Assembly: GCA_040902655.1 (NCBI GenBank)
Contig: JBBDWV010000041.1
Span: 60,647 to 93,405, forward strand
DNA: 32,759 nucleotides
Origin: Mycobacteriales bacterium
GTDB taxonomy: Bacteria > Actinomycetota > Actinomycetes > Mycobacteriales > SCTD01
Direction of reading: 5' to 3'
The notes below the pieces were generated by a model. The model was not told the DNA's origin. It did no database searches and saw only the letters and a program-made list of their open reading frames with translations. A program made the position numbers and the translations under genes. Of this stretch, positions 6,434-22,295 are shown one piece after another; position 1 is the stretch's first letter, and each line of letters opens with the position of its first letter.

Positions 6434-7414
6434 CTACCGACGGCCTCGCTGCAGCAGGGCTCGGTCGTGATCCACCATCCGGCCGACGATGTCAGCGAAG
6501 TCGAGGTCGGCAGACCAGCCGAGCCTGTCCCGCGCCCGGCTCGCGTCTCCGACCAGCTCGACTGCGTCGGCAGGTCGATGGAGAGCAGGGTCGACGCTGA
6601 CGAGCGCTCTCCAGTCCTGGATTCCCACCCGGGCGAAGGCGGCGGCGACGAAGTCCTCCACGCTGTGCGACCTGCCGGTAGCGATGATGTAGTCGTCTGC
6701 ACTGCTGTGCTGAAGTGCGCGGACCATGGCATCGACGTATTCCGGGGCCCATCCCCAGTCGCGGCGGGCGGCCAGGTTACCCAGTACCAGGCTGCGTTGC
6801 TGCCCCTCTGCGATGGCCGCCACCGCCTGAGTGATCTTGCGGGTCACGAAGGTCGGCGGCCGGCGGGGCGATTCGTGGTTGTAGAGGATGGTGCTGACCG
6901 CATGCAGCCCACGGGCGCGGTAGACCTGCACGAGATGATGGGCGTAGGCCTTGGCGGCCCCGTAGGGCGAGCGGGGGCTCACCTCCGTCGACTCGTTCTG
7001 CGGGGCCTGCTCTGCGCCGGAGAAGATCTCGGCGCTCGAGGCCTGCAGGAAGCGGACGGCGTGTCCGGTCGCCTCCTGTCTCCGCCACACGAGGTCGAGC
7101 AGGAAGGCGACGGCGAGGCCGTTGACCCGAGCGGCCAGAACGGGTTGGTCCCAGGATTCTGCGACCGAGGAGAGGCCGGCGAGGTTGAACACGGCGTCGG
7201 GGGAAGCCGCGGCGAGGACCTGCCGCATCGCGGTGTGATCCAGCAGGTCGGCTTCGTGCAGGACGACTGCCTCGCCGAGCGCCCACAATGCTTCCGGGAG
7301 CGCCTCACCTGGGCGGACGACGCCGTGCACGGACCAGCCGCTGCCGGCCAGCTGTTCGACGAGGTAGCCGCCGTCCTGCCCCGTCACACCGGTGACCAGC
7401 GCGGTGCCGCTCAT
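6434..7414 (-). CDS. GDP-mannose 4,6-dehydratase-like SDR epimerase/dehydratase (second paralogue)
   Basis: This is a 326-residue extended short-chain dehydrogenase. The Rossmann glycine motif TGVTGQDGGYL is at the N-terminus, SSAEIF carries the catalytic Ser/Glu positions, SPYGAAKAYAH carries YxxxK, and NHESPRRPPTFVTRKI is the Gmd signature loop. It is related to but clearly diverged from the Gmd immediately upstream, for example IFSGAEQAP where that enzyme has MFGKVQEVP. Its ATG shares one base with the upstream stop (TGATG), so the pair is translationally coupled. It may be a second dehydratase, a partner in a heteromer, or an enzyme altered to act on the keto-sugar product. Sequence alone does not decide between these. 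Confidence 0.85.
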   Translation of the reverse strand: MSGTALVTGVTGQDGGYLVEQLAGSGWSVHGVVRPGEALPEALWALGEAVVLHEADLLDHTAMRQVLAAASPDAVFNLAGLSSVAESWDQPVLAARVNGLAVAFLLDLVWRRQEATGHAVRFLQASSAEIFSGAEQAPQNESTEVSPRSPYGAAKAYAHHLVQVYRARGLHAVSTILYNHESPRRPPTFVTRKITQAVAAIAEGQQRSLVLGNLAARRDWGWAPEYVDAMVRALQHSSADDYIIATGRSHSVEDFVAAAFARVGIQDWRALVSVDPALHRPADAVELVGDASRARDRLGWSADLDFADIVGRMVDHDRALLQRGRR

Positions 7415-8400
7415 CAGCGACTCAGTAGGAACTGCTGCTCGGCGAGGTCGCTCTCCACCATCATCTGCACCAGCTCCTGGAAGCCCACCGTAGGCTGCCA
7501 GCCGAGCTCCACACGTGCCTTGCTGGCGTCACCGACGAGAAGATCGACTTCGGCTGGGCGGAAGTAGCGGGGATCCTGCACCACGTACCGCTCCCAGTCC
7601 TCGATGCCGGCATGGCGGAACGCCACATCGAGCAGCTCGCGGATCGAGTGCGGCTCCCCGGTCGCCACGACGTAGTCGTTGCCTCGGGGCTGCTGCAGCA
7701 TCAGCCACATGGCTTGCACGTAGTCGCCGGCGAAACCCCAGTCGCGCTGGGCGTCCAGGTTGCCCAGGGAGACGGAGCCCTGCAGGCCCAGGGCGATGCG
7801 GGCGACGGCGCGGGTCACCTTGCGCGTCACGAACTCGGGTCCCCGACGCGGTGACTCGTGGTTGAACAGGATCCCGGACGAGGCGTGCATGCCGTAGGAC
7901 TCGCGGTAGTTGATCGTCATGTAGTGACCGAAGACCTTGGCCACGCCGTACGGCGACCTCGGCCACAGCAGGGTCGACTCACGCTGCGGCACCTCCTGCA
8001 CCTTGCCGAACATCTCTGAGCTGGAGGCCTGGTAGAAGCGGACCCGGTCCAGATTCTCCCCTGCGTAGAGACGAGTCGCCTCGAGCATGTTCAGCACGCC
8101 CTTACCTGTCACGTCCGAGGTCAGGTGGGCGTTCTCCCAGGAGTAGGCCACGAAGGAGATGGCGCCCAGGTTGTAGACCTCGTCCGGTTGCGCGACCTGG
8201 AACGCCCGCATGAGGCTGGACAGGTCCAGCAGGTCGCCGGTGACCACCTCCACGTCGGGCACCGTCTCCTGGAGCAGTGCGAGCTTGGGGTTGTTCTGGC
8301 CGCGCAACAGCCCGACGACGTGATACCCCTTGGCGAGCAGGAGCTCGGAGAGATAGAGGCCGTCCTGACCCGTCACGCCGGTGATGAATGCTCGCTTCAC
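7414..8400 (-). CDS. gmd: GDP-mannose 4,6-dehydratase
   Basis: This 328-residue enzyme matches the Gmd family closely. It has ITGVTGQDGLYLSELLL (NADP-binding glycine motif), VYNLGAISFVAYSW, SSSEMFGKVQE (catalytic Ser/Glu), PRSPYGVAKVFGHY (YxxxK), NHESPRRGPEFVTRKV and LGNLDAQRDWGFAGDYV. Gmd converts GDP-D-mannose to GDP-4-keto-6-deoxy-D-mannose, the precursor of GDP-fucose, GDP-rhamnose and GDP-perosamine-type sugars. The start is GTG at 8400 after GGGAG. It overlaps its paralogue downstream. It lies downstream of the flagellin unit on the same strand, so read-through from fliS could reach it. No reductase or aminotransferase that would finish a deoxyhexose is recognisable in this window. Confidence 0.92.
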   Translation of the reverse strand: MKRAFITGVTGQDGLYLSELLLAKGYHVVGLLRGQNNPKLALLQETVPDVEVVTGDLLDLSSLMRAFQVAQPDEVYNLGAISFVAYSWENAHLTSDVTGKGVLNMLEATRLYAGENLDRVRFYQASSSEMFGKVQEVPQRESTLLWPRSPYGVAKVFGHYMTINYRESYGMHASSGILFNHESPRRGPEFVTRKVTRAVARIALGLQGSVSLGNLDAQRDWGFAGDYVQAMWLMLQQPRGNDYVVATGEPHSIRELLDVAFRHAGIEDWERYVVQDPRYFRPAEVDLLVGDASKARVELGWQPTVGFQELVQMMVESDLAEQQFLLSR

Positions 8401-8445
8401 ACGCTCCCGCTTCCCGACACGGACGACGGCGAGGGCGCCGACCGG

Positions 8446-8480
8446 GGCGCCGCTCCTGAGCCGTGGAGCCTAGCGGCGCC
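8446..8480 (-). other. Inverted repeat between flagellin copy A and gmd
   Basis: GGCGCCGCT at 8446-8454 pairs perfectly with AGCGGCGCC at 8472-8480 across a 17-nt loop. It lies in the 155-bp gap between the fliT stump and gmd. There is no T-run on either strand. It could be a Rho-independent-like terminator of the flagellin unit, a leader hairpin of gmd, or a chance structure in GC-rich DNA. Confidence 0.3.
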
Positions 8481-8555
8481 GCTCCCTACGTCCTCGGGAC
8501 GGTCGAGGTTCAGGCGCCGTGGGCCAGAGGTCGCGGGAGCGCGTGCAGCTGCCGA

Positions 8556-8618
8556 TCAGCGGAGGCGGACCTGGTCGGCGAAGCTGTCGAGGCAGGTTGT
8601 CCAGGTGGTGGTGGTCAT
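8556..8618 (-). pseudogene. Truncated fliT-like stump at the end of flagellin copy A
   Basis: The first 15 codons (MTTTTWTTCLDSFAD) are identical to the intact fliT-like gene at 11484-11774. Its ATG overlaps the fliS stop as ATGA, exactly as in the intact copy. After Asp15 the sequence switches to unrelated DNA, giving QVRLR and a stop. The switch coincides with the left edge of the identical repeat at 8572, so the fragment is a duplication scar. The 20-residue product is unlikely to fold. Confidence 0.88.
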
Positions 8619-9007
8619 GCGGGTTGCAGGGCTTGGAGGGCGGCTTGGCGCCAGGTGTCGCGGAGGGGTTCGATGATTTCGCGGCAGGTGGTGACGCGGG
8701 TGGTGTTCTTGTCGAGGTTGGCGCCGACGAGTTCGGTGTGCAGGTAGGTGTAGAGGTCGGCCAGGCCGGCGGCTCCGTCCCAGGAGTCGAGGTCCAGGCT
8801 GGTGCGCAGTTCCAGGATGATCTGCTGGGCGTGGACGAGTTCGCTGCTGGCTTTGGCGTTGTCGCCGGCGGTCAGTGCGGTTTCGGCGGTGACCAGGTCG
8901 CGGATTAGGCGGTCGTAGAGCATGATGAGCAGCCGGGCGGGGGAGGCGGTGGTGACGGCCTCGCGGGTGTACTGGGCGCGGGCGGCGCCGAGTTGTGCCT
9001 GATACAT
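8615..9007 (-). CDS. fliS: Flagellin export chaperone FliS, copy A
   Basis: FliS is a small cytoplasmic helical-bundle chaperone that binds the C-terminal part of flagellin and prevents premature polymerisation before export. This 130-residue protein has the FliS pattern YTREAVTTASPARLLIMLYDRLIRDL near the N-terminus, then helices ending LREIIEPLRDTW-like. The ATG at 9007 sits three bases after the fliD TAA, with GGGGGAA overlapping the fliD end. It is identical to copy B. The stop overlaps the ATG of a truncated fliT stump instead of an intact gene, so this copy has lost its downstream partner. Confidence 0.95.
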   Translation of the reverse strand: MYQAQLGAARAQYTREAVTTASPARLLIMLYDRLIRDLVTAETALTAGDNAKASSELVHAQQIILELRTSLDLDSWDGAAGLADLYTYLHTELVGANLDKNTTRVTTCREIIEPLRDTWRQAALQALQPA

Positions 9008-9010
9008 GGG

Positions 9011-10360
9011 TTAGTTCCCCCAGCTCGGGAGGCCGGCGATCTGGCCGGACAGCCATTGTCCTTGGGCCTGTGAGGCGCGCAGGGCTTTCTCCAGCCCGGT
9101 GAACTGCCGTTGCAGGGTGAGCTGGCGTAGCTCCAGCCGGTTGTCCCAGTTGCTGATGCTGGCCTTGAGGCCGGTGACCTGGCTTTCGCGGCTGGTGATG
9201 GCGCCGTGGATCAGGCCGGGGCCGTCGCTGTGGTACTGGCCGCGGGAGGCGCCGTCGGCGAGGGTGTGCAGCCGGCCGGCCAGCCCGGTCTCACCGAGGG
9301 TCTTCTCGACCGCGACCGGGTCGTCGGCCATGGCCTTGAGGAACTTGTCCTTGTCGAACTTGACGGTGCCGTCACGTTCGACGCTGACGCCGGCGATGCC
9401 GGCGCTGGTGGTTCCGTCGCCGATGACGGCGTCGGCCAGGGCGCTGCGCAGGCTGCGGATGCCGGAGTCGCCGTAGAGCTTCCCCTTGGCCTTGGTGTCC
9501 AGGTTGTAGGTGGTGAGTGCCTTGATGTCCGAGCGGGCCAGGTTGACCGCGTCGACGAGGGCGGCGACGTTGGCAGCCAGCCCTTCGGCGTCGCTCTTGA
9601 CCTCGACGGTGACGGGCACGCCGGCCTCGGCCTTGGTCAGTGTGAGGGTGACGCCGGTCATCAGGTCGCTGATGGTGTTGCTCGCGCGGGTGATGGTGGT
9701 GGTGCCGACCAGGAGCTTGGCGTCCTGACCGGCCACGACGGTGTCCTGGGCGCCCAGCGTGGCGGCGAAGGGGTTGGCACCGGCTCCGTCGTCGATCGTG
9801 ATCGCGGTGTCGGCGCCGGTGGTGGTGGAGGACAGGTGCAGCCGGTACTCGCCGGTGGTGGTCTGCACGGCGCTGGCCGTCACGCCCGCGCCGGCCTTGT
9901 TGATCGCGTTGACGACGGCGCCGAGGCTGCCGTCACCGGTGTTGATCTCGACAGCTGCGGCGGAGCCCTTGGTGAGGAAGATCGAGGTGTTCGCGGTGGC
10001 GACGGAATCGGCGGTGCTGGCCACGAAGCCGGCGCTCAGCGAGGTGGAGGCCTTGGCGAGCTGCTCGACGCTGAAGGTCAGGCTGCTCTGCGTCGCACCC
10101 GACGTGGCTGTCGCGGCCACCCGGGTGGTGTCGCTCGACGTCGCCGTGGCGAGCTGCCAGCCGGTGGCGGTGTTCAGCTTGCCGGCGGCGGTGGTGATCG
10201 ACAGGAACTTGGTGTTGAGGTCCTTCAGCGCGCTGATGGCGCTCTCGACCATCTTCTGCCTGCCCTGCAGACGCACCTGTGGCTGGCGTTCGAGCTGCAT
10301 CAGCTGCTTGATGATCTCGCTGGTGTTCAGGCCGGAGACCAGACCGTCGATGCTCGCCAC
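9011..10360 (-). CDS. fliD: Flagellar filament cap protein FliD, copy A
   Basis: FliD caps the growing filament and guides insertion of flagellin exported through the central channel. The protein has 449 residues, close to the usual 450-500. The N-terminal FliD_N part has SIDGLVSGLNTSEIIKQLMQLERQP and helical segments through about residue 110. The variable beta-rich middle spans about 110-260. The C-terminal FliD_C part (about 260-449) ends in heptad-like helices (TSRESQVTGLKASISNWDNR, then TGLEKALRA). The start is GTG at 10360 with AGGAG seven bases upstream. It is preceded by a hairpin-containing 95-bp spacer after fliC and followed at three bases by fliS. It is identical in sequence to copy B. 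Confidence 0.95.
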   Translation of the reverse strand: MASIDGLVSGLNTSEIIKQLMQLERQPQVRLQGRQKMVESAISALKDLNTKFLSITTAAGKLNTATGWQLATATSSDTTRVAATATSGATQSSLTFSVEQLAKASTSLSAGFVASTADSVATANTSIFLTKGSAAAVEINTGDGSLGAVVNAINKAGAGVTASAVQTTTGEYRLHLSSTTTGADTAITIDDGAGANPFAATLGAQDTVVAGQDAKLLVGTTTITRASNTISDLMTGVTLTLTKAEAGVPVTVEVKSDAEGLAANVAALVDAVNLARSDIKALTTYNLDTKAKGKLYGDSGIRSLRSALADAVIGDGTTSAGIAGVSVERDGTVKFDKDKFLKAMADDPVAVEKTLGETGLAGRLHTLADGASRGQYHSDGPGLIHGAITSRESQVTGLKASISNWDNRLELRQLTLQRQFTGLEKALRASQAQGQWLSGQIAGLPSWGN

Positions 10361-10410
10361 AGTGGCGCTCCTTGCAGGTGGGGGCGGAGAAGGACGTAAG
10401 AACCGAAGAA

Positions 10411-10440
10411 GGGCGGGGTGAGCGGCTGCTCACCCGCCCC
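10411..10440 (-). terminator. fliC-fliD intercistronic hairpin (attenuator candidate), copy A
   Basis: On the minus strand the 3' side of fliC is followed by a 12-bp GC-rich stem (one bulged base) around a four-base loop, then TTCTTCGGTTCTT. It lies between the fliC stop (10456) and the fliD start (10360). This is the form of a weak intrinsic terminator with an interrupted T-tract. Partial termination here would give abundant flagellin and less cap protein. The strength of the effect is not predictable from sequence alone. Confidence 0.65.
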
Positions 10441-10455
10441 TTTCCGGGTTGGTGC

Positions 10456-11277
10456 CTAGCGGAGCAGGGACAGCACGCCCTGCGGCGCCTGGTTGGCCTG
10501 CGCCAGCATCGCGGTGCCGGCCTGGGACAGGATCTGAGCCCGGGTGAAGCTCATCATCTCCTTGGCCATGTCGGTGTCGCGGATCCGCGACTCCGACGCC
10601 GCCAGGTTCTCCGAGGCCACGTTCAGGTTGTTGACCGTGTGCTCCAGCCGGTTCTGCACCGCACCGAGGTCGGCACGCGTCCCGGACACGGAGTTGATCG
10701 CGGTGTCGAGCGCCGTGATCGCAGCCGTCGCACCGGCCTGGGTGGAGACATCCACCGCGGTCGCGTCGACGCCCAGAGCGGTCGCGTCCTGGTCGGTGAT
10801 GGCCACGCTCAGCGTCTGACCGGAGTTCGCGCCGATCTGGAAGGTGCCGTTGAACGAGCCGTCGATCAGCTTCTTGCCGTTGAACTCGGTGGTGTCCGAG
10901 ATACGGGTCAGCTCGGTCTGAAGAGCCGAGACCTCCTTCTGGATCTGAACCCGGTCGTCATCGGTGTTCGTGTCGTTGGCGCTCTGCACCGACAGCTCAC
11001 GCATGCGCTGCAGGATCGAGTGCGACTCGTTCAGCGCACCCTCAGCCGTCTGGACCAGGCTGATGGCGTTCTGAGCGTTCGACGAGGCGGTGTTGAGACC
11101 GGTGACCTGGCTGCGCAGCTTCTCGCTGATCGCCAGACCAGCAGCGTCGTCAGCCGCCCGGTTGATCCGGAAGCCCGAGGACAGCTTCTCCAGGCTCTTG
11201 GACATCTGACCGTCGGTGACGGACAGGTTGCGGTAGGAGTTCATCGCCGCGATGTTCTGGTTGATACGCAGACCCAT
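10456..11277 (-). CDS. fliC: Flagellin, copy A
   Basis: This is the major filament subunit, exported by the flagellar type III system. At 273 residues it is short: the conserved D0/D1 halves are complete (1-140, starting GLRINQNIAAMNSYRNL; 196-273, ending APQGVLSLLR). Only a small Ser/Thr-rich insert lies between them at about 141-195, in place of large outer domains. The region LQRMRELSVQSAND (89-102), used for protofilament packing and recognised by TLR5 in other flagellins, is conserved. The ATG at 11277 follows GGAGGAAG. The insert would be the natural surface for O-glycosylation by the neighbouring transferases (inference). It has its own FliA-type promoter and leader hairpins, all identical to copy B. 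Confidence 0.97.
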   Translation of the reverse strand: MGLRINQNIAAMNSYRNLSVTDGQMSKSLEKLSSGFRINRAADDAAGLAISEKLRSQVTGLNTASSNAQNAISLVQTAEGALNESHSILQRMRELSVQSANDTNTDDDRVQIQKEVSALQTELTRISDTTEFNGKKLIDGSFNGTFQIGANSGQTLSVAITDQDATALGVDATAVDVSTQAGATAAITALDTAINSVSGTRADLGAVQNRLEHTVNNLNVASENLAASESRIRDTDMAKEMMSFTRAQILSQAGTAMLAQANQAPQGVLSLLR

Positions 11278-11283
11278 TGTTCT

Positions 11284-11298
11284 CTTCCTCCATGGAAA
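11284..11298 (-). promoter_or_regulatory. Hairpin at the fliC ribosome-binding site, loop AUGGA (copy A)
   Basis: On the minus strand UUUCC pairs with GGAAG around the loop AUGGA, so the Shine-Dalgarno GGAGGAAG is partly in the stem. ANGGA in a loop at the ribosome-binding site is the preferred CsrA contact in known targets such as Bacillus hag. Confidence 0.45.
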
Positions 11299-11324
11299 GG
11301 AGATCCCCGCTCGGAGACCCCACT

Positions 11325-11354
11325 GGTGTCGCCCCGCCTTCCTGGCGGGACACC
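11325..11354 (-). promoter_or_regulatory. 5' leader hairpin of fliC with GGA in the loop (copy A)
   Basis: On the minus strand GGTGTC and CCGCC pair with GGCGG and GACACC around the loop AGGAA, with a GGC bulge on the 3' side. The hairpin starts at about the base where a transcript from the FliA-type promoter would begin. This could protect the 5' end and present a GGA motif to CsrA. Its sequence is the same in copy B. Confidence 0.55.
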
Positions 11355-11358
11355 TCAG

Positions 11359-11386
11359 TCATCGGCCGCCGCAGCGTCGACCTGAG
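11359..11386 (-). promoter_or_regulatory. FliA-type promoter of fliC, copy A
   Basis: On the minus strand CTCAG (11386-11382), 15 bases, then GCCGATGA (11366-11359). The enterobacterial sigma-28 -10 is GCCGATAA, so seven of eight bases match. The same arrangement with the same spacing occurs upstream of flgN and, more weakly, cheA. The element is the last identical feature of the repeat before divergence at 11391. Confidence 0.75.
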
Positions 11387-11415
11387 CCCAAACGACAACA
11401 TCGCCCAAAAAACTT

Positions 11416-11457
11416 TCACACCCCACGACCCAACAGCACCCGCGTCACCTGCTCCAC
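11416..11457 (-). pseudogene. Remnant 3' end of a glycosyltransferase paralogue upstream of fliC copy A
   Basis: Read on the minus strand, this stretch ends ...VLLGRGV-stop. The glycosyltransferase upstream of fliC copy B ends ...VLLDRGV-stop at the same distance from its promoter (stops at 11416 and 14572, offset 3,156). Over the last eight sense codons there are four substitutions, three of them silent (CTG/TTG, CGC/CGT, GTC/GTG) and one giving Asp to Gly. Further upstream the similarity fades within about 20 bases and the sequence runs into the fliT-like gene end. The pattern of silent change suggests the fragment came from a functional gene. Confidence 0.6.
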
Positions 11458-11483
11458 CTGGTCTGCGCGCCAGGTGCAAAGAC

Positions 11484-11774
11484 TCAGGCGCGACTGTCGA
11501 TGAAGCTCGGCCGGGCCGGCTCGGAAGGGCGGTGCAGGTCGGCGAGCGCAGCCTGCGTCCGGGTGCGGGCCTCGGAGATGGCGGCGGTCAGGCTCTCAGC
11601 TTGAGCCTGCAGTGCCTTGGCGCGGGCGAGCAGCCCTACGGGCAGCGCGCCGAGGTCGCCCGAGGGGACGAACGGCGTGATGAGCTCCGGTGTGCCTGCC
11701 GCCAGAGCCTGCCGCTGGTGCTCGAGGTGGTCGGCGAAGCTGTCGAGGCAGGTTGTCCAGGTGGTGGTGGTCAT
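11484..11774 (-). CDS. FliT-like small flagellar protein (intact copy)
   Basis: This is a 96-residue mostly helical protein directly after fliS copy B, its ATG overlapping the fliS stop as ATGA. The middle (VGLLARAKALQAQAESLTAAISEARTRTQAALADL) is a long amphipathic helix pair. Size, helix content and place after fliS match FliT-type chaperones, which bind FliD in enterobacteria, but no diagnostic residue confirms this. The ATG at 11774 lies inside the repeat (the first 15 codons are shared with the stump at 8556). The rest is single-copy, so the organism has two fliD genes but one intact fliT-like gene. It ends 206 bp before fliC copy A. Confidence 0.65.
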   Translation of the reverse strand: MTTTTWTTCLDSFADHLEHQRQALAAGTPELITPFVPSGDLGALPVGLLARAKALQAQAESLTAAISEARTRTQAALADLHRPSEPARPSFIDSRA

Positions 11775-12163
11775 GCGGGTTGCAGGGCTTGGAGGGCGGC
11801 TTGGCGCCAGGTGTCGCGGAGGGGTTCGATGATTTCGCGGCAGGTGGTGACGCGGGTGGTGTTCTTGTCGAGGTTGGCGCCGACGAGTTCGGTGTGCAGG
11901 TAGGTGTAGAGGTCGGCCAGGCCGGCGGCTCCGTCCCAGGAGTCGAGGTCCAGGCTGGTGCGCAGTTCCAGGATGATCTGCTGGGCGTGGACGAGTTCGC
12001 TGCTGGCTTTGGCGTTGTCGCCGGCGGTCAGTGCGGTTTCGGCGGTGACCAGGTCGCGGATTAGGCGGTCGTAGAGCATGATGAGCAGCCGGGCGGGGGA
12101 GGCGGTGGTGACGGCCTCGCGGGTGTACTGGGCGCGGGCGGCGCCGAGTTGTGCCTGATACAT
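11771..12163 (-). CDS. fliS: Flagellin export chaperone FliS, copy B
   Basis: It is identical to copy A at the protein level (130 residues) and, as far as can be checked, at the DNA level. Unlike copy A, its stop overlaps the start of an intact fliT-like gene (ATGA at 11771-11774), the usual late-flagellar order fliC-fliD-fliS-fliT. Two chaperone copies keep pace with two flagellin copies if both promoters fire. Confidence 0.95.
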   Translation of the reverse strand: MYQAQLGAARAQYTREAVTTASPARLLIMLYDRLIRDLVTAETALTAGDNAKASSELVHAQQIILELRTSLDLDSWDGAAGLADLYTYLHTELVGANLDKNTTRVTTCREIIEPLRDTWRQAALQALQPA

Positions 12164-12166
12164 GGG

Positions 12167-13516
12167 TTAGTTCCCCCAGCTCGGGAGGCCGGCGATCTGG
12201 CCGGACAGCCATTGTCCTTGGGCCTGTGAGGCGCGCAGGGCTTTCTCCAGCCCGGTGAACTGCCGTTGCAGGGTGAGCTGGCGTAGCTCCAGCCGGTTGT
12301 CCCAGTTGCTGATGCTGGCCTTGAGGCCGGTGACCTGGCTTTCGCGGCTGGTGATGGCGCCGTGGATCAGGCCGGGGCCGTCGCTGTGGTACTGGCCGCG
12401 GGAGGCGCCGTCGGCGAGGGTGTGCAGCCGGCCGGCCAGCCCGGTCTCACCGAGGGTCTTCTCGACCGCGACCGGGTCGTCGGCCATGGCCTTGAGGAAC
12501 TTGTCCTTGTCGAACTTGACGGTGCCGTCACGTTCGACGCTGACGCCGGCGATGCCGGCGCTGGTGGTTCCGTCGCCGATGACGGCGTCGGCCAGGGCGC
12601 TGCGCAGGCTGCGGATGCCGGAGTCGCCGTAGAGCTTCCCCTTGGCCTTGGTGTCCAGGTTGTAGGTGGTGAGTGCCTTGATGTCCGAGCGGGCCAGGTT
12701 GACCGCGTCGACGAGGGCGGCGACGTTGGCAGCCAGCCCTTCGGCGTCGCTCTTGACCTCGACGGTGACGGGCACGCCGGCCTCGGCCTTGGTCAGTGTG
12801 AGGGTGACGCCGGTCATCAGGTCGCTGATGGTGTTGCTCGCGCGGGTGATGGTGGTGGTGCCGACCAGGAGCTTGGCGTCCTGACCGGCCACGACGGTGT
12901 CCTGGGCGCCCAGCGTGGCGGCGAAGGGGTTGGCACCGGCTCCGTCGTCGATCGTGATCGCGGTGTCGGCGCCGGTGGTGGTGGAGGACAGGTGCAGCCG
13001 GTACTCGCCGGTGGTGGTCTGCACGGCGCTGGCCGTCACGCCCGCGCCGGCCTTGTTGATCGCGTTGACGACGGCGCCGAGGCTGCCGTCACCGGTGTTG
13101 ATCTCGACAGCTGCGGCGGAGCCCTTGGTGAGGAAGATCGAGGTGTTCGCGGTGGCGACGGAATCGGCGGTGCTGGCCACGAAGCCGGCGCTCAGCGAGG
13201 TGGAGGCCTTGGCGAGCTGCTCGACGCTGAAGGTCAGGCTGCTCTGCGTCGCACCCGACGTGGCTGTCGCGGCCACCCGGGTGGTGTCGCTCGACGTCGC
13301 CGTGGCGAGCTGCCAGCCGGTGGCGGTGTTCAGCTTGCCGGCGGCGGTGGTGATCGACAGGAACTTGGTGTTGAGGTCCTTCAGCGCGCTGATGGCGCTC
13401 TCGACCATCTTCTGCCTGCCCTGCAGACGCACCTGTGGCTGGCGTTCGAGCTGCATCAGCTGCTTGATGATCTCGCTGGTGTTCAGGCCGGAGACCAGAC
13501 CGTCGATGCTCGCCAC
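12167..13516 (-). CDS. fliD: Flagellar filament cap protein FliD, copy B
   Basis: It is a 449-residue protein identical to copy A, with the same GTG start and the same AGGAG seven bases upstream. The three-base gap to fliS and the hairpin-bearing spacer after fliC are also the same. Because the filament needs only five or so cap subunits, duplication of fliD is more likely a passenger of flagellin duplication than selected for itself (inference). Confidence 0.95.
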   Translation of the reverse strand: MASIDGLVSGLNTSEIIKQLMQLERQPQVRLQGRQKMVESAISALKDLNTKFLSITTAAGKLNTATGWQLATATSSDTTRVAATATSGATQSSLTFSVEQLAKASTSLSAGFVASTADSVATANTSIFLTKGSAAAVEINTGDGSLGAVVNAINKAGAGVTASAVQTTTGEYRLHLSSTTTGADTAITIDDGAGANPFAATLGAQDTVVAGQDAKLLVGTTTITRASNTISDLMTGVTLTLTKAEAGVPVTVEVKSDAEGLAANVAALVDAVNLARSDIKALTTYNLDTKAKGKLYGDSGIRSLRSALADAVIGDGTTSAGIAGVSVERDGTVKFDKDKFLKAMADDPVAVEKTLGETGLAGRLHTLADGASRGQYHSDGPGLIHGAITSRESQVTGLKASISNWDNRLELRQLTLQRQFTGLEKALRASQAQGQWLSGQIAGLPSWGN

Positions 13517-13566
13517 AGTGGCGCTCCTTGCAGGTGGGGGCGGAGAAGGACGTAAGAACCGAAGAA

Positions 13567-13596
13567 GGGCGGGGTGAGCGGCTGCTCACCCGCCCC
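13567..13596 (-). terminator. fliC-fliD intercistronic hairpin (attenuator candidate), copy B
   Basis: It has the same 12-bp bulged GC-rich stem, four-base loop and TTCTTC tail as at 10411-10440, between the fliC stop (13612) and the fliD start (13516). Confidence 0.65.
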
Positions 13597-13611
13597 TTTC
13601 CGGGTTGGTGC

Positions 13612-14433
13612 CTAGCGGAGCAGGGACAGCACGCCCTGCGGCGCCTGGTTGGCCTGCGCCAGCATCGCGGTGCCGGCCTGGGACAGGATCTGAGCCCGGG
13701 TGAAGCTCATCATCTCCTTGGCCATGTCGGTGTCGCGGATCCGCGACTCCGACGCCGCCAGGTTCTCCGAGGCCACGTTCAGGTTGTTGACCGTGTGCTC
13801 CAGCCGGTTCTGCACCGCACCGAGGTCGGCACGCGTCCCGGACACGGAGTTGATCGCGGTGTCGAGCGCCGTGATCGCAGCCGTCGCACCGGCCTGGGTG
13901 GAGACATCCACCGCGGTCGCGTCGACGCCCAGAGCGGTCGCGTCCTGGTCGGTGATGGCCACGCTCAGCGTCTGACCGGAGTTCGCGCCGATCTGGAAGG
14001 TGCCGTTGAACGAGCCGTCGATCAGCTTCTTGCCGTTGAACTCGGTGGTGTCCGAGATACGGGTCAGCTCGGTCTGAAGAGCCGAGACCTCCTTCTGGAT
14101 CTGAACCCGGTCGTCATCGGTGTTCGTGTCGTTGGCGCTCTGCACCGACAGCTCACGCATGCGCTGCAGGATCGAGTGCGACTCGTTCAGCGCACCCTCA
14201 GCCGTCTGGACCAGGCTGATGGCGTTCTGAGCGTTCGACGAGGCGGTGTTGAGACCGGTGACCTGGCTGCGCAGCTTCTCGCTGATCGCCAGACCAGCAG
14301 CGTCGTCAGCCGCCCGGTTGATCCGGAAGCCCGAGGACAGCTTCTCCAGGCTCTTGGACATCTGACCGTCGGTGACGGACAGGTTGCGGTAGGAGTTCAT
14401 CGCCGCGATGTTCTGGTTGATACGCAGACCCAT
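13612..14433 (-). CDS. fliC: Flagellin, copy B
   Basis: It is a 273-residue flagellin identical to copy A, with the same promoter, leader hairpins and GGAGGAAG ribosome-binding site before the ATG at 14433. Its upstream neighbour is an intact GT2-GT2-TPR glycosyltransferase whose stop (14572) lies only 30 bp above the -35 element. This copy sits in what looks like the original gene order: sigma factor, glycosyltransferase, fliC, fliD, fliS, fliT-like. Confidence 0.97.
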   Translation of the reverse strand: MGLRINQNIAAMNSYRNLSVTDGQMSKSLEKLSSGFRINRAADDAAGLAISEKLRSQVTGLNTASSNAQNAISLVQTAEGALNESHSILQRMRELSVQSANDTNTDDDRVQIQKEVSALQTELTRISDTTEFNGKKLIDGSFNGTFQIGANSGQTLSVAITDQDATALGVDATAVDVSTQAGATAAITALDTAINSVSGTRADLGAVQNRLEHTVNNLNVASENLAASESRIRDTDMAKEMMSFTRAQILSQAGTAMLAQANQAPQGVLSLLR

Positions 14434-14439
14434 TGTTCT

Positions 14440-14454
14440 CTTCCTCCATGGAAA
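14440..14454 (-). promoter_or_regulatory. Hairpin at the fliC ribosome-binding site, loop AUGGA (copy B)
   Basis: It is identical to 11284-11298: a five-pair stem (one G-U) with AUGGA in the loop and the Shine-Dalgarno in its 3' arm, seven bases before the ATG at 14433. It is a candidate CsrA site. Confidence 0.45.
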
Positions 14455-14480
14455 GGAGATCCCCGCTCGGAGACCCCACT

Positions 14481-14510
14481 GGTGTCGCCCCGCCTTCCTG
14501 GCGGGACACC
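14481..14510 (-). promoter_or_regulatory. 5' leader hairpin of fliC with GGA in the loop (copy B)
   Basis: It is identical to 11325-11354. The expected transcription start from the promoter at 14515-14542 falls at about 14508, so the hairpin would form the very 5' end of the mRNA. It is a candidate first CsrA site and stabilising 5' structure. Confidence 0.55.
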
Positions 14511-14514
14511 TCAG

Positions 14515-14542
14515 TCATCGGCCGCCGCAGCGTCGACCTGAG
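14515..14542 (-). promoter_or_regulatory. FliA-type promoter of fliC, copy B
   Basis: On the minus strand CTCAG (14542-14538), 15 bases, then GCCGATGA (14522-14515). It has the same elements and spacing as copy A and as the flgN promoter at 18001-18028. Confidence 0.77.
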
Positions 14543-14571
14543 CCCAGACGACAACATCGCCCAAAAAAGTT

Positions 14572-16914
14572 TCAGACCCCGCGATCCAGCAGCACCTGCG
14601 CCTGCTCCACCGCCCCCAACGCCGTCAAGACCTCGGCCAGCGCCGTTGTCCGCGCAGAGTCGCTGGCCGCCAGCTGCACGAAGTCACCCAGCAGCCGCGG
14701 ACAGAGCTCGTCCAGTGAGAGCAAGGCCGGGCGCAGGTCCTCGATCGGCACGGCGGCGGCGGCCGCCGCCAGGCTCATGATCCCACGCGGATCACCGACC
14801 GCCTCGTGGAGCACGGCGCAGGCCCGCAGCCGGTCCAGGACGGGGGCGGAGGTCGAGCCGGCCAGCGCCGCCAGCGTGCACTCTTGCACCAGGCCGTCTT
14901 CGCGAAGTCGCAGGGACCACTCAAGCGCGCGCTCCAGGCTGAGGTGCGGGCCCAGCTGAGCGGCTGTGGCGAGCAGCCTGGGATCTGGCCCCCAGCGCTG
15001 CCAGAGCGTTTCGAGCAGCAGGTCGACCGCCTCCGTCGGAGCCGCCAGCACCCGTCCGAGCACCGGCACGGCATCCTCCGGCAGGACGTCCGCGACCCGC
15101 TCGAGCCCGAGACCGGCCTGCCAGTGCGCCTCCACGATCGCCGGCCAGGAGCGCAGCGGCAGCAGCCCGCCGGAGGCAAGCACCCAGAGCTCCTGAGCGG
15201 CCTCGTGCCAGCGACCGGCGTCGGTGAGGACCCGTGCCCGCTGTACCCCCACGGCGTGCCGGCCGAGGCTCATCTCCTCGTCCGACGCCCGGTCCAGCCG
15301 GGCGAGTGCGTCCAGCGCTGCCTGGGCGTCGCCCGCCTGGGCGTGGGCCAGGCTCTCGAGGTGATCGGCCATGGCACTGCTGCCGGTGTGGGCACGCAGG
15401 CTCTGCAGCCAGCTCAGCGCCTCCTGTGGGCGTTCGAGCGCCACCAGTGCCTCTGCACCGGCACGCAACGCGTGGCGCAGCAGTTCGCTGTCCGAGGTCG
15501 TCGTGCGAACGTGCTGCAGGTGGGGGACTGCTTCCTCGTGCCGGCCGGCCGAGATGAGGGCCCGCGCGAGGCCGATCCTGGTGTGCAGGTCGATGCCGCC
15601 GTCCGCCTCCACGGCGGCGCGCGCGATCCGGAGGTTGCGTGCGACCTTGTCGCCGGCGGCCTGCGCCGCTGCGGTGTAGCCCGAGTGCCGCAGGCGAAGG
15701 CTTGCGCAGCGGGCGAACGTGAGCGTCCCGCCACGGGCGACCACCCGCTCGTGCAGGCGGCCCTGCCAGTGCGCCCGGCGCCGGCGGAAGAGGCGGACCG
15801 CCACGTGCTCGACCGCCACCTCGCCGTCGTCGCCGAGGTTGTCGATCTCCACCTCCAGAGCATCCGCAGTGGTCTGAGCGATCTCGGCGCGTAGCGTGGT
15901 CCGGTCTGTGAGCACCAGCTCGTCCGCGTCCACGTGCAGGATCCACTCCCCGCGGCAGTGCTCCAGGGCACTGTTGCGCGCCCGCGCGAAGTCGTCGTCC
16001 CAGTGGCCGTCGACGACCGTCGCTCCGGCAGCGCGTGCGATCTCCACCGTCTTGTCCGTGGACCCGGTGTCGTAGACCACGATCTCCTCGACCACGTCCT
16101 GCACTGCCGTAAGGCAGGCGGGAAGCGTGTCCTGCTCGTTCTTGACGATCATGCAGGCCGACAGGAGCACGGCACCGCTGCCCGACGTGCGCTGCTGCCG
16201 GCGGTGGGCGGCGGACAGCTGCCCTCCGTCCCGGACCGGCCGGTCGGTACGCCGGATCCCGGACGGCGTGGGCGAGGCGCGGTGCACGAAGCATTCGTCG
16301 GCGACGAGCAGACGGAAGCCGGCCTCAGCGATCCGCCGGCAGAGGCCCTCTGCCTCGGCACCATCCTGGTCGCTCCGGGCCGGCAAGCCCTCCAACCGGT
16401 CGAACAGGTCGCGTCGCACGGCGAGGCACCTGCCGTCCAGGCTGGTGGCGCTGGTCGTCTCCCCGCGATGCTCTGCCCGCCAGGCGCGGGCGTACCGCTG
16501 CAGCTCGGACATGCGCACGGCGTCATACGTCACGTCCGGTACGAGCTGCGCCCCCGAGATGTCGTTCGACCGCGGCCCGGTCGCGCCGACCGTCGGGTCG
16601 GTGAACGGTGCGAGCAGCCCGTCCAGCCAGCGTGAGGGCAGCAGCGTGTCGTTGCCGAGGAAGACCAGCACGTCGCCCTGCGCCACAGCGGCGCCGCTGT
16701 GGCAGCTGGCCGCGAAGCCGAGGTCCTGCGGATGGGAGACCACCGTCACCCAGGAGTAGCGGGCCAGGCCCTGCGCCGTCCCGTCGACCGACCCGTTGTC
16801 GACGACGATGACCTGGTCACGCAGGCCGAGCGTCGGCCGGAGCGACTCGAGACAGGCGCGGGTCAGCTCCCACCCATTCCAGGCCGGGATGATGATGGAC
16901 GCCGTGAGGCGCAT
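14572..16914 (-). CDS. Double GT2 glycosyltransferase with C-terminal TPR region
   Basis: The protein has 780 residues from the ATG at 16914, chosen because GGAG lies eight bases upstream; a GTG at 16941 would add nine residues. Domain 1 (about 1-235) is GT-A family 2: ASIIIPAWNGWELTRACLES, VIVVDNGSVDGT and LGNDTLLP as the DxD-equivalent. Domain 2 (about 250-430) is a second GT2: SACMIVKNEQDTLPACL, VVYDTGSTDKT and HVDADEL (DxD). Residues about 430-780 form TPR-like helical pairs (ARALISAGRHEEAVPHL and similar). There is no membrane segment. TPR parts of some flagellin glycosyltransferases, such as Caulobacter FlmG, bind flagellin. The position directly upstream of fliC makes flagellin modification the leading idea, still inferred. 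A degenerate paralogous 3' end precedes the other fliC. Confidence 0.87.
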   Translation of the reverse strand: MRLTASIIIPAWNGWELTRACLESLRPTLGLRDQVIVVDNGSVDGTAQGLARYSWVTVVSHPQDLGFAASCHSGAAVAQGDVLVFLGNDTLLPSRWLDGLLAPFTDPTVGATGPRSNDISGAQLVPDVTYDAVRMSELQRYARAWRAEHRGETTSATSLDGRCLAVRRDLFDRLEGLPARSDQDGAEAEGLCRRIAEAGFRLLVADECFVHRASPTPSGIRRTDRPVRDGGQLSAAHRRQQRTSGSGAVLLSACMIVKNEQDTLPACLTAVQDVVEEIVVYDTGSTDKTVEIARAAGATVVDGHWDDDFARARNSALEHCRGEWILHVDADELVLTDRTTLRAEIAQTTADALEVEIDNLGDDGEVAVEHVAVRLFRRRRAHWQGRLHERVVARGGTLTFARCASLRLRHSGYTAAAQAAGDKVARNLRIARAAVEADGGIDLHTRIGLARALISAGRHEEAVPHLQHVRTTTSDSELLRHALRAGAEALVALERPQEALSWLQSLRAHTGSSAMADHLESLAHAQAGDAQAALDALARLDRASDEEMSLGRHAVGVQRARVLTDAGRWHEAAQELWVLASGGLLPLRSWPAIVEAHWQAGLGLERVADVLPEDAVPVLGRVLAAPTEAVDLLLETLWQRWGPDPRLLATAAQLGPHLSLERALEWSLRLREDGLVQECTLAALAGSTSAPVLDRLRACAVLHEAVGDPRGIMSLAAAAAAVPIEDLRPALLSLDELCPRLLGDFVQLAASDSARTTALAEVLTALGAVEQAQVLLDRGV

Positions 16915-16951
16915 GCCGTGCTCCAGGAGGTAGGCGGACACTCTGCCCCAT

Positions 16952-20914: not shown

Positions 20915-21319
20915 TTGACCACTGCCGTTCTGCCTGAGACTGTCCTGCCCGTGCTGACGATGGACGGCGGCCTGGCCGGCTTCCCCGGAGCCGACCGCTA
21001 CGCGCTCGTCGAGCTGCCCGAGGCCAGCCCGCTCTTCCTCCTGCGCAGCCTGGACGTGGAGGGCCTGGAGTTCGTCGTCGCACCGCCGGCCGTGTTCTTC
21101 GCCGACTACGCCCCGGAGCTGGACGACGCCACCGTCGACCTGCTGGGCATCACCGACGCGACGGACGTCCTGCTGCTGGTCATGCTCACGGTCGGGACCG
21201 GTATCGAGACCGCCACGGCCAACCTGCTGGCCCCGATCGTCATCAACCAGCGCACCCGCTCTGCCGCGCAGGTGGTCCTGCAGGCCGACTGGCCGCTGCG
21301 CGCCCCGCTGCGCCCCTGA
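20915..21319 (+). CDS. fliW: Flagellar assembly factor FliW (CsrA antagonist)
   Basis: FliW binds flagellin and, when flagellin is exported, binds CsrA and relieves repression of flagellin translation. The protein has 134 residues, within family length. It has the pattern GLAGFPGADRYALVELPEASPLFLLRSLD, then FVVAPPAVFFADYAPEL, LLLVMLTVGTGIETATANLLAPIVIN and QVVLQADWPLRAPL, which are clear FliW signatures. The start is TTG at 20915 with AGGAG eight bases upstream; no ATG or GTG fits, which may keep the level low. csrA normally follows directly, but here a toxin-antitoxin pair lies between. Confidence 0.94.
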   Translation: MTTAVLPETVLPVLTMDGGLAGFPGADRYALVELPEASPLFLLRSLDVEGLEFVVAPPAVFFADYAPELDDATVDLLGITDATDVLLLVMLTVGTGIETATANLLAPIVINQRTRSAAQVVLQADWPLRAPLRP

Positions 21320-21347: not shown

Positions 21348-21378
21348 TGGACATGTCGTCGCGGATTCGCGCTAGGAT
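21348..21378 (+). promoter_or_regulatory. Vegetative-type promoter giving a near-leaderless antitoxin transcript
   Basis: TGGACA at 21348-21353 and TAGGAT at 21373-21378 resemble -35 and -10 elements with a 19-base spacer. The expected start point, about seven bases after the -10, coincides with the antitoxin ATG at 21386. Leaderless mRNAs are common in actinobacteria, and no Shine-Dalgarno is visible. Confidence 0.5.
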
Positions 21379-21385
21379 TCTGTAC

Positions 21386-21670
21386 ATGACGACCCTCCCG
21401 TTGGCGGACGCCCGCGCGCAGCTCTCGCGGCTGATCGACGACGCGGCAAGCACCCACGAGCGTTTCGAGATCACCCGCAACGGTCGTCGCGCGGCGGTGC
21501 TGCTCTCCGCCGACGACTACGACACGCTGCAGGACACGATCGCCGTCCTCTCCGACGCCGACCTGCTGGCGGCACACGTGGACGGTCGCGCGGCTCTCGA
21601 GGCCGGTGACGTCCTGGACGCCGAGCAGCTCGCCGACACCATGCGGAGGGCAGGTCGGCTCCGGCGGTGA
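21386..21670 (+). CDS. Type II antitoxin, Phd/YefM family
   Basis: This is a 94-residue protein with the Phd/YefM DNA-binding N-terminus. It has LPLADARAQLSRLIDDA, FEITRNGRRAAVLLSADDYDTLQDT and a C-terminal acidic helical tail that would wrap the toxin. Such antitoxins neutralise a RelE/ParE-like partner and repress their own operon with it. The ATG at 21386 is preferred over an in-frame ATG 33 bases upstream, because the latter would lie inside the probable promoter. The stop overlaps the toxin start (GTGA). It is placed between fliW and csrA and has no link to motility by family. Confidence 0.9.
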   Translation: MTTLPLADARAQLSRLIDDAASTHERFEITRNGRRAAVLLSADDYDTLQDTIAVLSDADLLAAHVDGRAALEAGDVLDAEQLADTMRRAGRLRR

Positions 21671-21939
21671 GCGAGCGCTACCGGCTGCACATCGCGCGCC
21701 CGGCGGCGAGAGCCCTGGCAGAACAGCTGCCCGAGAAGGTGGCCGCAGCGGCCTATGAGTTCATCACCGGTCCGCTGCTCGACGACCCACACCGCGTCGG
21801 CAAGCCGCTCGCGCCGCCGATGGCCCCTGCCTGGACCGCCCGCCGAGGCAGCTACCGGATCCTGTACCACCTCGATGACGTGCACCGCCTCGTCCAGGTC
21901 ACGGCCGTGCGGCATCGCTGCGAGGCCCACCGGTCCTGA
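21667..21939 (+). CDS. RelE/ParE-family toxin
   Basis: This 90-residue basic protein has the RelE-type layout: [24 protein letters not shown], then [10 protein letters not shown], the core strand [12 protein letters not shown] and a C-terminal [12 protein letters not shown] with the basic/His residues used for ribosome-dependent mRNA cleavage. The start is GTG at 21667, overlapping the antitoxin stop. It is complete, with no frameshift, so it is probably functional with its antitoxin. ParE-like gyrase inhibition is the alternative activity. Confidence 0.9.
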
Positions 21940-22022: not shown

Positions 22023-22295
22023 ATGCTGGTCCTCACCCGCCGCAGTCAGCAGAGCATCATGATCGGCAAGGACGTGGTCATCACGATCCTGGAGGTGCGC
22101 GGCGACCAGGTCCGCCTGGGCGTGTCCGCGCCCCGGGACGTGGCGGTGCACCGCGAGGAGGTCTTCCTCGAGCTGCAGGAGGCCAACAAGTCCGCCGCCT
22201 CCCCGTCGGCCGAGGCGATCAGCGCCCTGGGCAGCCTGCTGTCTGCTCCCGATCCCGACAAGGCTGACGAGAAGGACACACCCGGCACGACCTGA
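22023..22295 (+). CDS. csrA: Carbon storage regulator CsrA (translational repressor)
   Basis: CsrA is a dimeric RNA-binding protein that blocks ribosome access at GGA-containing hairpins. Residues 1-58 are a full CsrA core: [45 protein letters not shown], with the RNA-contact residues of the first strand and of the VHREEV strand present. A 30-residue Ser/Pro/Asp-rich tail extends past the usual 60-75 residues. Long tails occur in FliW-regulated CsrA proteins, where FliW contacts this part. The ATG at 22023 follows GGAAGGA. The probable target here is the fliC leader. Confidence 0.95.

Follow-up and report, generated by a model that had tools for sequence, protein, structure and literature searches.

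Tandem flagellin gene pairs evolve in concert in Alteromonadales, and gene conversion has been proposed as the cause in the accessible text of the report (PMC6053082). Some Geodermatophilaceae carry two fliC copies, according to the accessible part of another study (PMC9686282). In this work a flagellar locus of a Mycobacteriales bacterium (assembly GCA_040902655.1, contig JBBDWV010000041.1, positions 60,647 to 93,405) was analyzed, in which not only fliC, but a complete fliC-fliD-fliS unit is present twice in tandem. The whole stretch of 32,759 nucleotides is called the window, and its last position (32759, G000:C41:93405) is also the end of the contig. The genome is a draft of 3.56 Mb in 62 contigs with a completeness of 97.9%. 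As in the Alteromonadales pairs, the tandem copies within the genome seem to be more alike than their age predicts. In contrast to the available description of these pairs, which lists flagellin (PMC6053082), the repeated unit comprises a putative promoter together with fliC, fliD and fliS, and a diverged relic accompanies it, which can serve as a clock. That tandem flagellin genes can evolve in concert is already known, and near-identical tandem fliC genes occur in the order. As far as the literature was searched, the extent of the unit from the promoter to fliS, the dating relic inside the locus, and the stranded gene downstream of fliS are new. No published report of a duplicated fliC-fliD-fliS unit was found, in a weak search that was confined to titles and the starts of abstracts and did not cover most subscription journals, and PMC13317340 yielded nothing relevant on identical tandem flagellins.

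The positions 8572-11390 and 11728-14546 of the window, which does not contain any N, were found to be identical at 2,819 of 2,819 bases, with 0 mismatches, and the identity breaks off precisely at both ends of the repeat. A perfect repeat of 2.8 kb is far beyond chance. An identical tandem unit of this length had been claimed by an earlier sequence-only reading of the window, and this is borne out by the assembled sequence, including the exact ends. The two copies lie head to tail on the minus strand, with a direct spacing of 3,156 bp and a spacer of 337 bp between them. The upstream copy (copy 2, 11728..14546) includes a promoter motif, a leader, and the genes for flagellin (fliC, 13612..14433, 273 aa), the filament cap (fliD, 12167..13516, 449 aa) and the flagellin chaperone (fliS, 11771..12163, 130 aa), and its last part is made up of the initial 15 codons of a fourth gene. 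In the identical downstream copy (copy 1, 8572..11390) the respective genes are located at 10456..11277, 9011..10360 and 8615..9007. The fliC, fliD and fliS genes of copy 1 exceed the curated Pfam cut-offs, and the assignments apply to copy 2 by sequence identity; for fliD of copy 2 FliD matches were also obtained. A search of the genome with the repeat unit retrieved the two copies and one stray match of 37 bp with 86% identity (40 of 393 candidates were scored). Both the perfect identity and the copy number are taken from the assembled sequence.

The homology was found to run on, in a diverged form, beyond the right-hand end of the repeat. The sequence at 11391-11458 corresponds to 14547-14611, which covers the final codons of a glycosyltransferase/TPR gene (14572..16941, minus strand, identified with Pfam) together with the beginning of the region upstream of fliC. 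The 68-bp relic in the spacer (11391..11458, minus strand) differs from this parent by substitutions at 7 of 65 aligned sites and by an indel of 3 bp. With blastn 58 of 67 positions were identical (E 2e-18), and this value together with the coverage of the end of the glycosyltransferase frame ruled out a chance similarity of the flank. At fourfold degenerate sites 0 of 518 differ between the two copies, compared with 7 of 65 sites in the relic (Fisher p 1.6e-7). The chance to observe 0 of 518 would be 2e-26 at the rate of the relic, 6e-11 at the lower 95% bound of that rate, and 0.005 at a rate of 1%. The duplication is probably older than the identity of the copies, because a recent event would have left the relic identical, whereas it is diverged; for this dating the relic is assumed to be functionless. 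The copies thus appear to be closer to each other than would be expected from the age of the duplication, as it would be the case after gene conversion, with the reservation that merging by the assembler might have contributed. Two alternatives had been put forward in the sequence-only reading, a very recent event and active gene conversion, and the diverged relic speaks against the former and for a later homogenization. A single very recent tandem duplication, which had no time to accumulate mutations, would be in accord with the absence of differences across 2,819 bp and with the head-to-tail order, but the duplicated part outside of the identical core has diverged. It was rejected as the best reading on the basis of the relic and is considered to be improbable. 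At the other side of the repeat, a blastn comparison of the spacer with positions 8001-8571 yielded no match at E ≤1, and therefore the left end at 8572 has the appearance of a genuine breakpoint or of a deletion.

The two ends of the array differ with respect to the fourth gene, which overlaps the fliS stop codon by 4 bp. It is complete only after the upstream copy (11484..11774, minus strand, 96 aa). In copy 1 the reading frame leaves the repeat after codon 15 and continues with 5 unrelated codons and a stop codon, so that a truncated remnant is present (8556..8618, minus strand). A genome search with this post-fliS gene detected it once in intact form and once as the truncated remnant, and two additional matches with E values of 0.11 and 0.24 were taken as chance. 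This arrangement bears on the possibility that there is no duplication at all and that the assembler walked wrongly through a loop. A draft assembly with identical copies is what such an error would yield, but the 337-bp spacer, which leads from the intact post-fliS gene over the diverged relic to fliC, could not have been obtained from either outer flank, and the two ends are distinguished by the missing downstream post-fliS gene. An assembly loop is therefore regarded as very improbable.

We consider it rather probable that an old tandem duplication of fliC, fliD, fliS and the gene in the FliT position, i.e., the post-fliS gene, was later homogenized by RecA-type recombination, either gene conversion or unequal exchange. 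In the first step of this model, the region from the last codons of the glycosyltransferase gene to just past the post-fliS gene would have been duplicated head to tail. By way of a short microhomology, the joint would have connected a GGT after the post-fliS gene to a GGT in the end of the glycosyltransferase gene, leaving the relic between the copies; the junction past the intact post-fliS gene reads ...AGACCAGGTGGAGCAGG... today. In a second step, the downstream post-fliS gene would have been deleted between short GACCA repeats, and the end of copy 1 now reads ...CCGACCAGGTCCGCC... The two steps together would account for both ends. The relic, which is presumed to lack a function, would then have decayed to the divergence that is observed. 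The stretch of 2.8 kb that reaches from the promoter as far as the homology extends is identical as assembled, and it would have been kept alike by recombination. At present flagellin, cap and flagellin chaperone would be produced from two equal FliA-driven operons, the promoters of which were called by motif only.

To put the locus into context, flagellin genes of relatives were compared. Flagellin matches at E ≤1e-40 were obtained in 80 of 298 genomes of the order, and several of them contain two or three tandem fliC genes. The comparison comprised 18 loci of our choice with 33 fliC genes, and pair identities were calculated over 257 common codons. The identity of the closest fliC pair was 94% in G224, 95% in G105, 96% in G279, 97% in G268 and in G275, and 100% in G171. 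Identities of 70-90% were obtained for the other fliC pairs of these six genomes, and in G059 only a pair with 70% identity is present. In G171, which consists of one contig, a repeat without any mismatch, 1,341 bp long and with a spacing of 1,053 bp, extends across the tandem fliC genes (L056, 5921-8314). Four genomes have three fliC genes in fliC-only arrays (G105, G268, G275 and G279; genus g31), and in a phylogenetic tree the two copies nearest to fliD cluster by genome. This pairing, which occurs in spite of the shared gene order, would fit concerted evolution or repeated duplication. The arrays of G171, G224, G275, G105, G268 and G279 have the same fliC(n)-fliD-fliS order as the locus in the window; unlike in the window, fliC alone is repeated in them, and fliD and fliS are single genes. 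Two further arrays were noticed during the survey. Four tandem fliC genes of Acidimicrobiales MAG-142 (L141, 1-3794) have exact tracts of 184-287 bp in common, which are arranged as a patchwork and would be expected if gene conversion had occurred repeatedly, and two tandem fliC genes of Kurthia sibirica (L087, 10973-13123) share an exact repeat of 882 bp.

Several observations weigh against an old duplication that was homogenized later. The relic is short, and the age estimate is based on 7 substitutions and one indel. The first two steps of the model depend on matches of 3 and 5 bp. In the tree of the relatives the fliC copies in first position cluster with those of other genomes instead of by genome, and G279_3 is equally close to G268_3 (96%) and to G279_2. 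For flagellin pairs an independent tandem duplication has been named as an alternative in the accessible text of the Alteromonadales study (PMC6053082). In the family of the window, the tandem fliC genes of G010 and G018 have diverged (83% and 89% identity) and are followed by a single fliD, and therefore homogenization is not general in this family. In addition, a conversion tract with one boundary at the end of the homology and the other directly at the first mismatch is also the pattern expected when an assembler merges copies.

The latter point leads to the possibility that the tandem arrangement is real, but that differing copies were merged during assembly, so that the perfect identity would partly be an artifact. 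The draft genome comprises 62 contigs, and assemblers for metagenomes are able to merge copies that are nearly identical; metaSPAdes collapses bulges of similar sequence, as stated in the accessible portion of PMC8021871. If the genome is a metagenome assembly, merging would have to be taken seriously. G016 and G023, which belong to the same family, break off within fliC at contig ends. A small subunit (SSU) rRNA gene was not found in the genome, which is a weak test (26 of 34 candidates were scored). It was likewise not found in the one-contig genome G171, and it was present in 5 of 8 genomes (18 candidates scored each). The absence therefore reveals nothing firm about the type of assembly. 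In our judgment, merging could hide scattered differences of about 1%, but not the 11% of the relic, and the core would still have to be much closer than the relic. Furthermore, an exact fliC repeat of 1.3 kb also exists in the one-contig genome G171. Merging is thus held to be unlikely, albeit with a weight that should not be neglected, and an old duplication with later homogenization is the preferred reading.

The sequence-only reading had also proposed that the repeat provides a tunable flagellin dose. Copy number would then be a dose switch, the locus would expand and contract, and the population would hold forms with one, two and three copies. A direct spacing of 3,156 bp with an identity of 2.8 kb should suit RecA, and a RecA-dependent variation of a tandem duplication has been described for Burkholderia thailandensis in the accessible text of PMC9946442. 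The two cases have in common that direct repeats permit a change of copy number. However, the unit of B. thailandensis comprises 208.6 kb and is bounded by insertion sequence (IS) elements (PMC9946442, accessible text), and in the present locus one of the recombination products would lose a gene. No IS was noticed at the ends of the repeat, and no tool search was aimed at IS elements. A recombination between the copies would remove 3,156 bp, and with them the one post-fliS gene that was found intact in the genome. The relic-bearing spacer exists only when at least two copies are present, and because the relic has decayed, this suggests that the locus has been at two or more copies for long. 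Moreover, fliW and csrA are present in the window and could buffer the dose. A tunable dose is thus not supported, and a dose switch is judged to be improbable.

Because a collapse to one copy would delete the only intact post-fliS gene found, the duplication is perhaps locked in, provided that this gene matters for motility. Recombinants with one operon would lose a flagellar gene, the duplication would be kept without any benefit of dose, and conversion would keep the operons identical. This self-locking is put forward as a tentative idea, which we regard as rather less than likely. If it is true, the location of a third gene, and not selection for dose, can hold a duplication in place. If sequencing reads confirm the arrangement, a decaying scrap of a gene would be a built-in clock beside a 2.8-kb repeat, and the balance between mutation and homogenization would become measurable.

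Within the order (397 genomes searched) a tandem duplication of fliD was detected in 1 of 110 FliD-bearing genomes above the cut-off, which is the genome of the window, and in the phylum (396 genomes searched) in 0 of 58 further FliD-bearing genomes. None of the 21 genomes with one or two contigs among the 110 has a tandem FliD. In addition, 80 named loci were fetched, which are the best 80 of 575 from a scan with a flagellin alignment, and tblastn revealed no tandem FliD in the 44 of them that are FliD-bearing. The FliD matches in L081 and L085 occur in two pieces and were read as one gene each, and a very long match row in L155, which stems from a stretch aligned to itself, presumably a run of N, was disregarded. 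Among the 110 genomes of the order, G287 and G319 carry a second FliD, which is located on a different contig. In the phylum survey several genomes contained one FliD in two pieces (in different frames in G667), and the pieces were on different contigs in G431, G521, G529 and G680; adjacent complete FliD matches were noticed only in the genome of the window. The counts of tandem fliD are lower bounds, because draft genomes may hide identical repeats. No relative that shares the fliC-fliD-fliS duplication was found in the genomes surveyed. A FliD_C match was absent from all 8 further genomes of the genus, several of which are incomplete, and two of them had only weak FliD-like matches with E values of about 5e-4. 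Outside of the genus, a FliD_C match was observed in 5 of 15 other genomes of the family, some of which are incomplete. The flagellar locus looks patchy in the family, for which loss or transfer are possible explanations.

The post-fliS gene was characterized further. In all 17 relatives that were fetched, a small open reading frame (ORF) of 79-142 aa begins in the interval from 4 bp upstream to 7 bp downstream of the fliS stop codon. Several of the 17 also have a longer ORF in another frame near the fliS stop; the ORF that was chosen overlaps fliS and has the common motif. A small ORF of this kind was also present in 28 of 30 loci that we had picked from the 80 named loci, and one of these (L120, 51 aa) is doubtful. 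When 22 of the 28 ORFs were aligned with the gene of the window, leaving out L081, L111, L120, L124, L128 and L144, W, L, P and R residues were invariant at some positions, and an LGPLP-like common core became apparent. A comparison of these 23 sequences with Pfam and NCBIfam did not retrieve any flagellar model among the matches. The predicted structure of the protein is a two-helix hairpin with a mean predicted local distance difference test (pLDDT) value of 88. This model had no Foldseek match at E ≤0.001, and the VIA Z values were ≤3.3 over 31 chains. FliT is termed highly divergent in the accessible part of PMC10746217. The gene is designated as a gene in the FliT position, a name given by position only, and not as FliT, because a match to a family model or a telling structural match was not obtained. 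It is conserved in the actinobacterial loci examined, yet it is without a flagellar match in Pfam or NCBIfam.

FliA-dependent promoters ahead of flagellar genes have the consensus CTCA-N(14-17)-GCCGA. A CTCA-N16-GCCGA motif starts 109 nt ahead of each fliC ATG in the window (14518..14542 for copy 2 and 11362..11386 for copy 1, minus strand). In the window this pattern was counted 7 times compared with 2.78 expected occurrences, a number of 7 was reached by 2 of 100 shuffles, and one of the occurrences precedes flgN. It was found ahead of few fliC genes of the relatives, and therefore the putative promoters are FliA-type by motif only. The fliC leader of copy 1 (11284..11353, minus strand), which has the same sequence at 14440-14509, contains hairpins with possible CsrA sites. 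GGA is present in two hairpin loops, the second of which adjoins the Shine-Dalgarno sequence, and these are candidate CsrA sites as judged from the motif. The folding of the leader gives a weak signal (z -1.79), and 9 of 200 shuffles fold equally well. A YCCNNGGAGGA motif precedes 22 of the 33 fliC genes examined.

The possible buffering of the flagellin dose is based on two genes on the plus strand of the window, fliW (20915..21319, Pfam), which is predicted to act in the feedback on the flagellin level, and csrA (22023..22295). In Bacillus subtilis FliW and CsrA keep the cytoplasmic flagellin near a set level by feedback, according to the accessible text of PMC6529632. Because fliW and csrA, which are feedback regulators in B. 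subtilis, are both present in the window, a doubled flagellin gene may be buffered in an analogous way. Similar to the Hag-FliW-CsrA system, fliW and csrA are located in one cluster, and a GGA motif lies at the Shine-Dalgarno sequence of fliC. In contrast to B. subtilis, for which the accessible text of PMC6529632 describes a translational coupling of CsrA expression to FliW, a toxin-antitoxin-like pair splits fliW and csrA in the window. In this pair (21353-21939) an antitoxin gene of the Phd/YefM type (Pfam E 4.8e-19) precedes a ParE-like ORF, which scored 22.4 bits and thus just below the cut-off of 23 bits. The flagellin units are flanked (6434-8400 and 14572-16941) by two GDP-mannose dehydratase-like genes and the glycosyltransferase/TPR gene, and a glycosylation of flagellin by the products of these flanking genes is possible.

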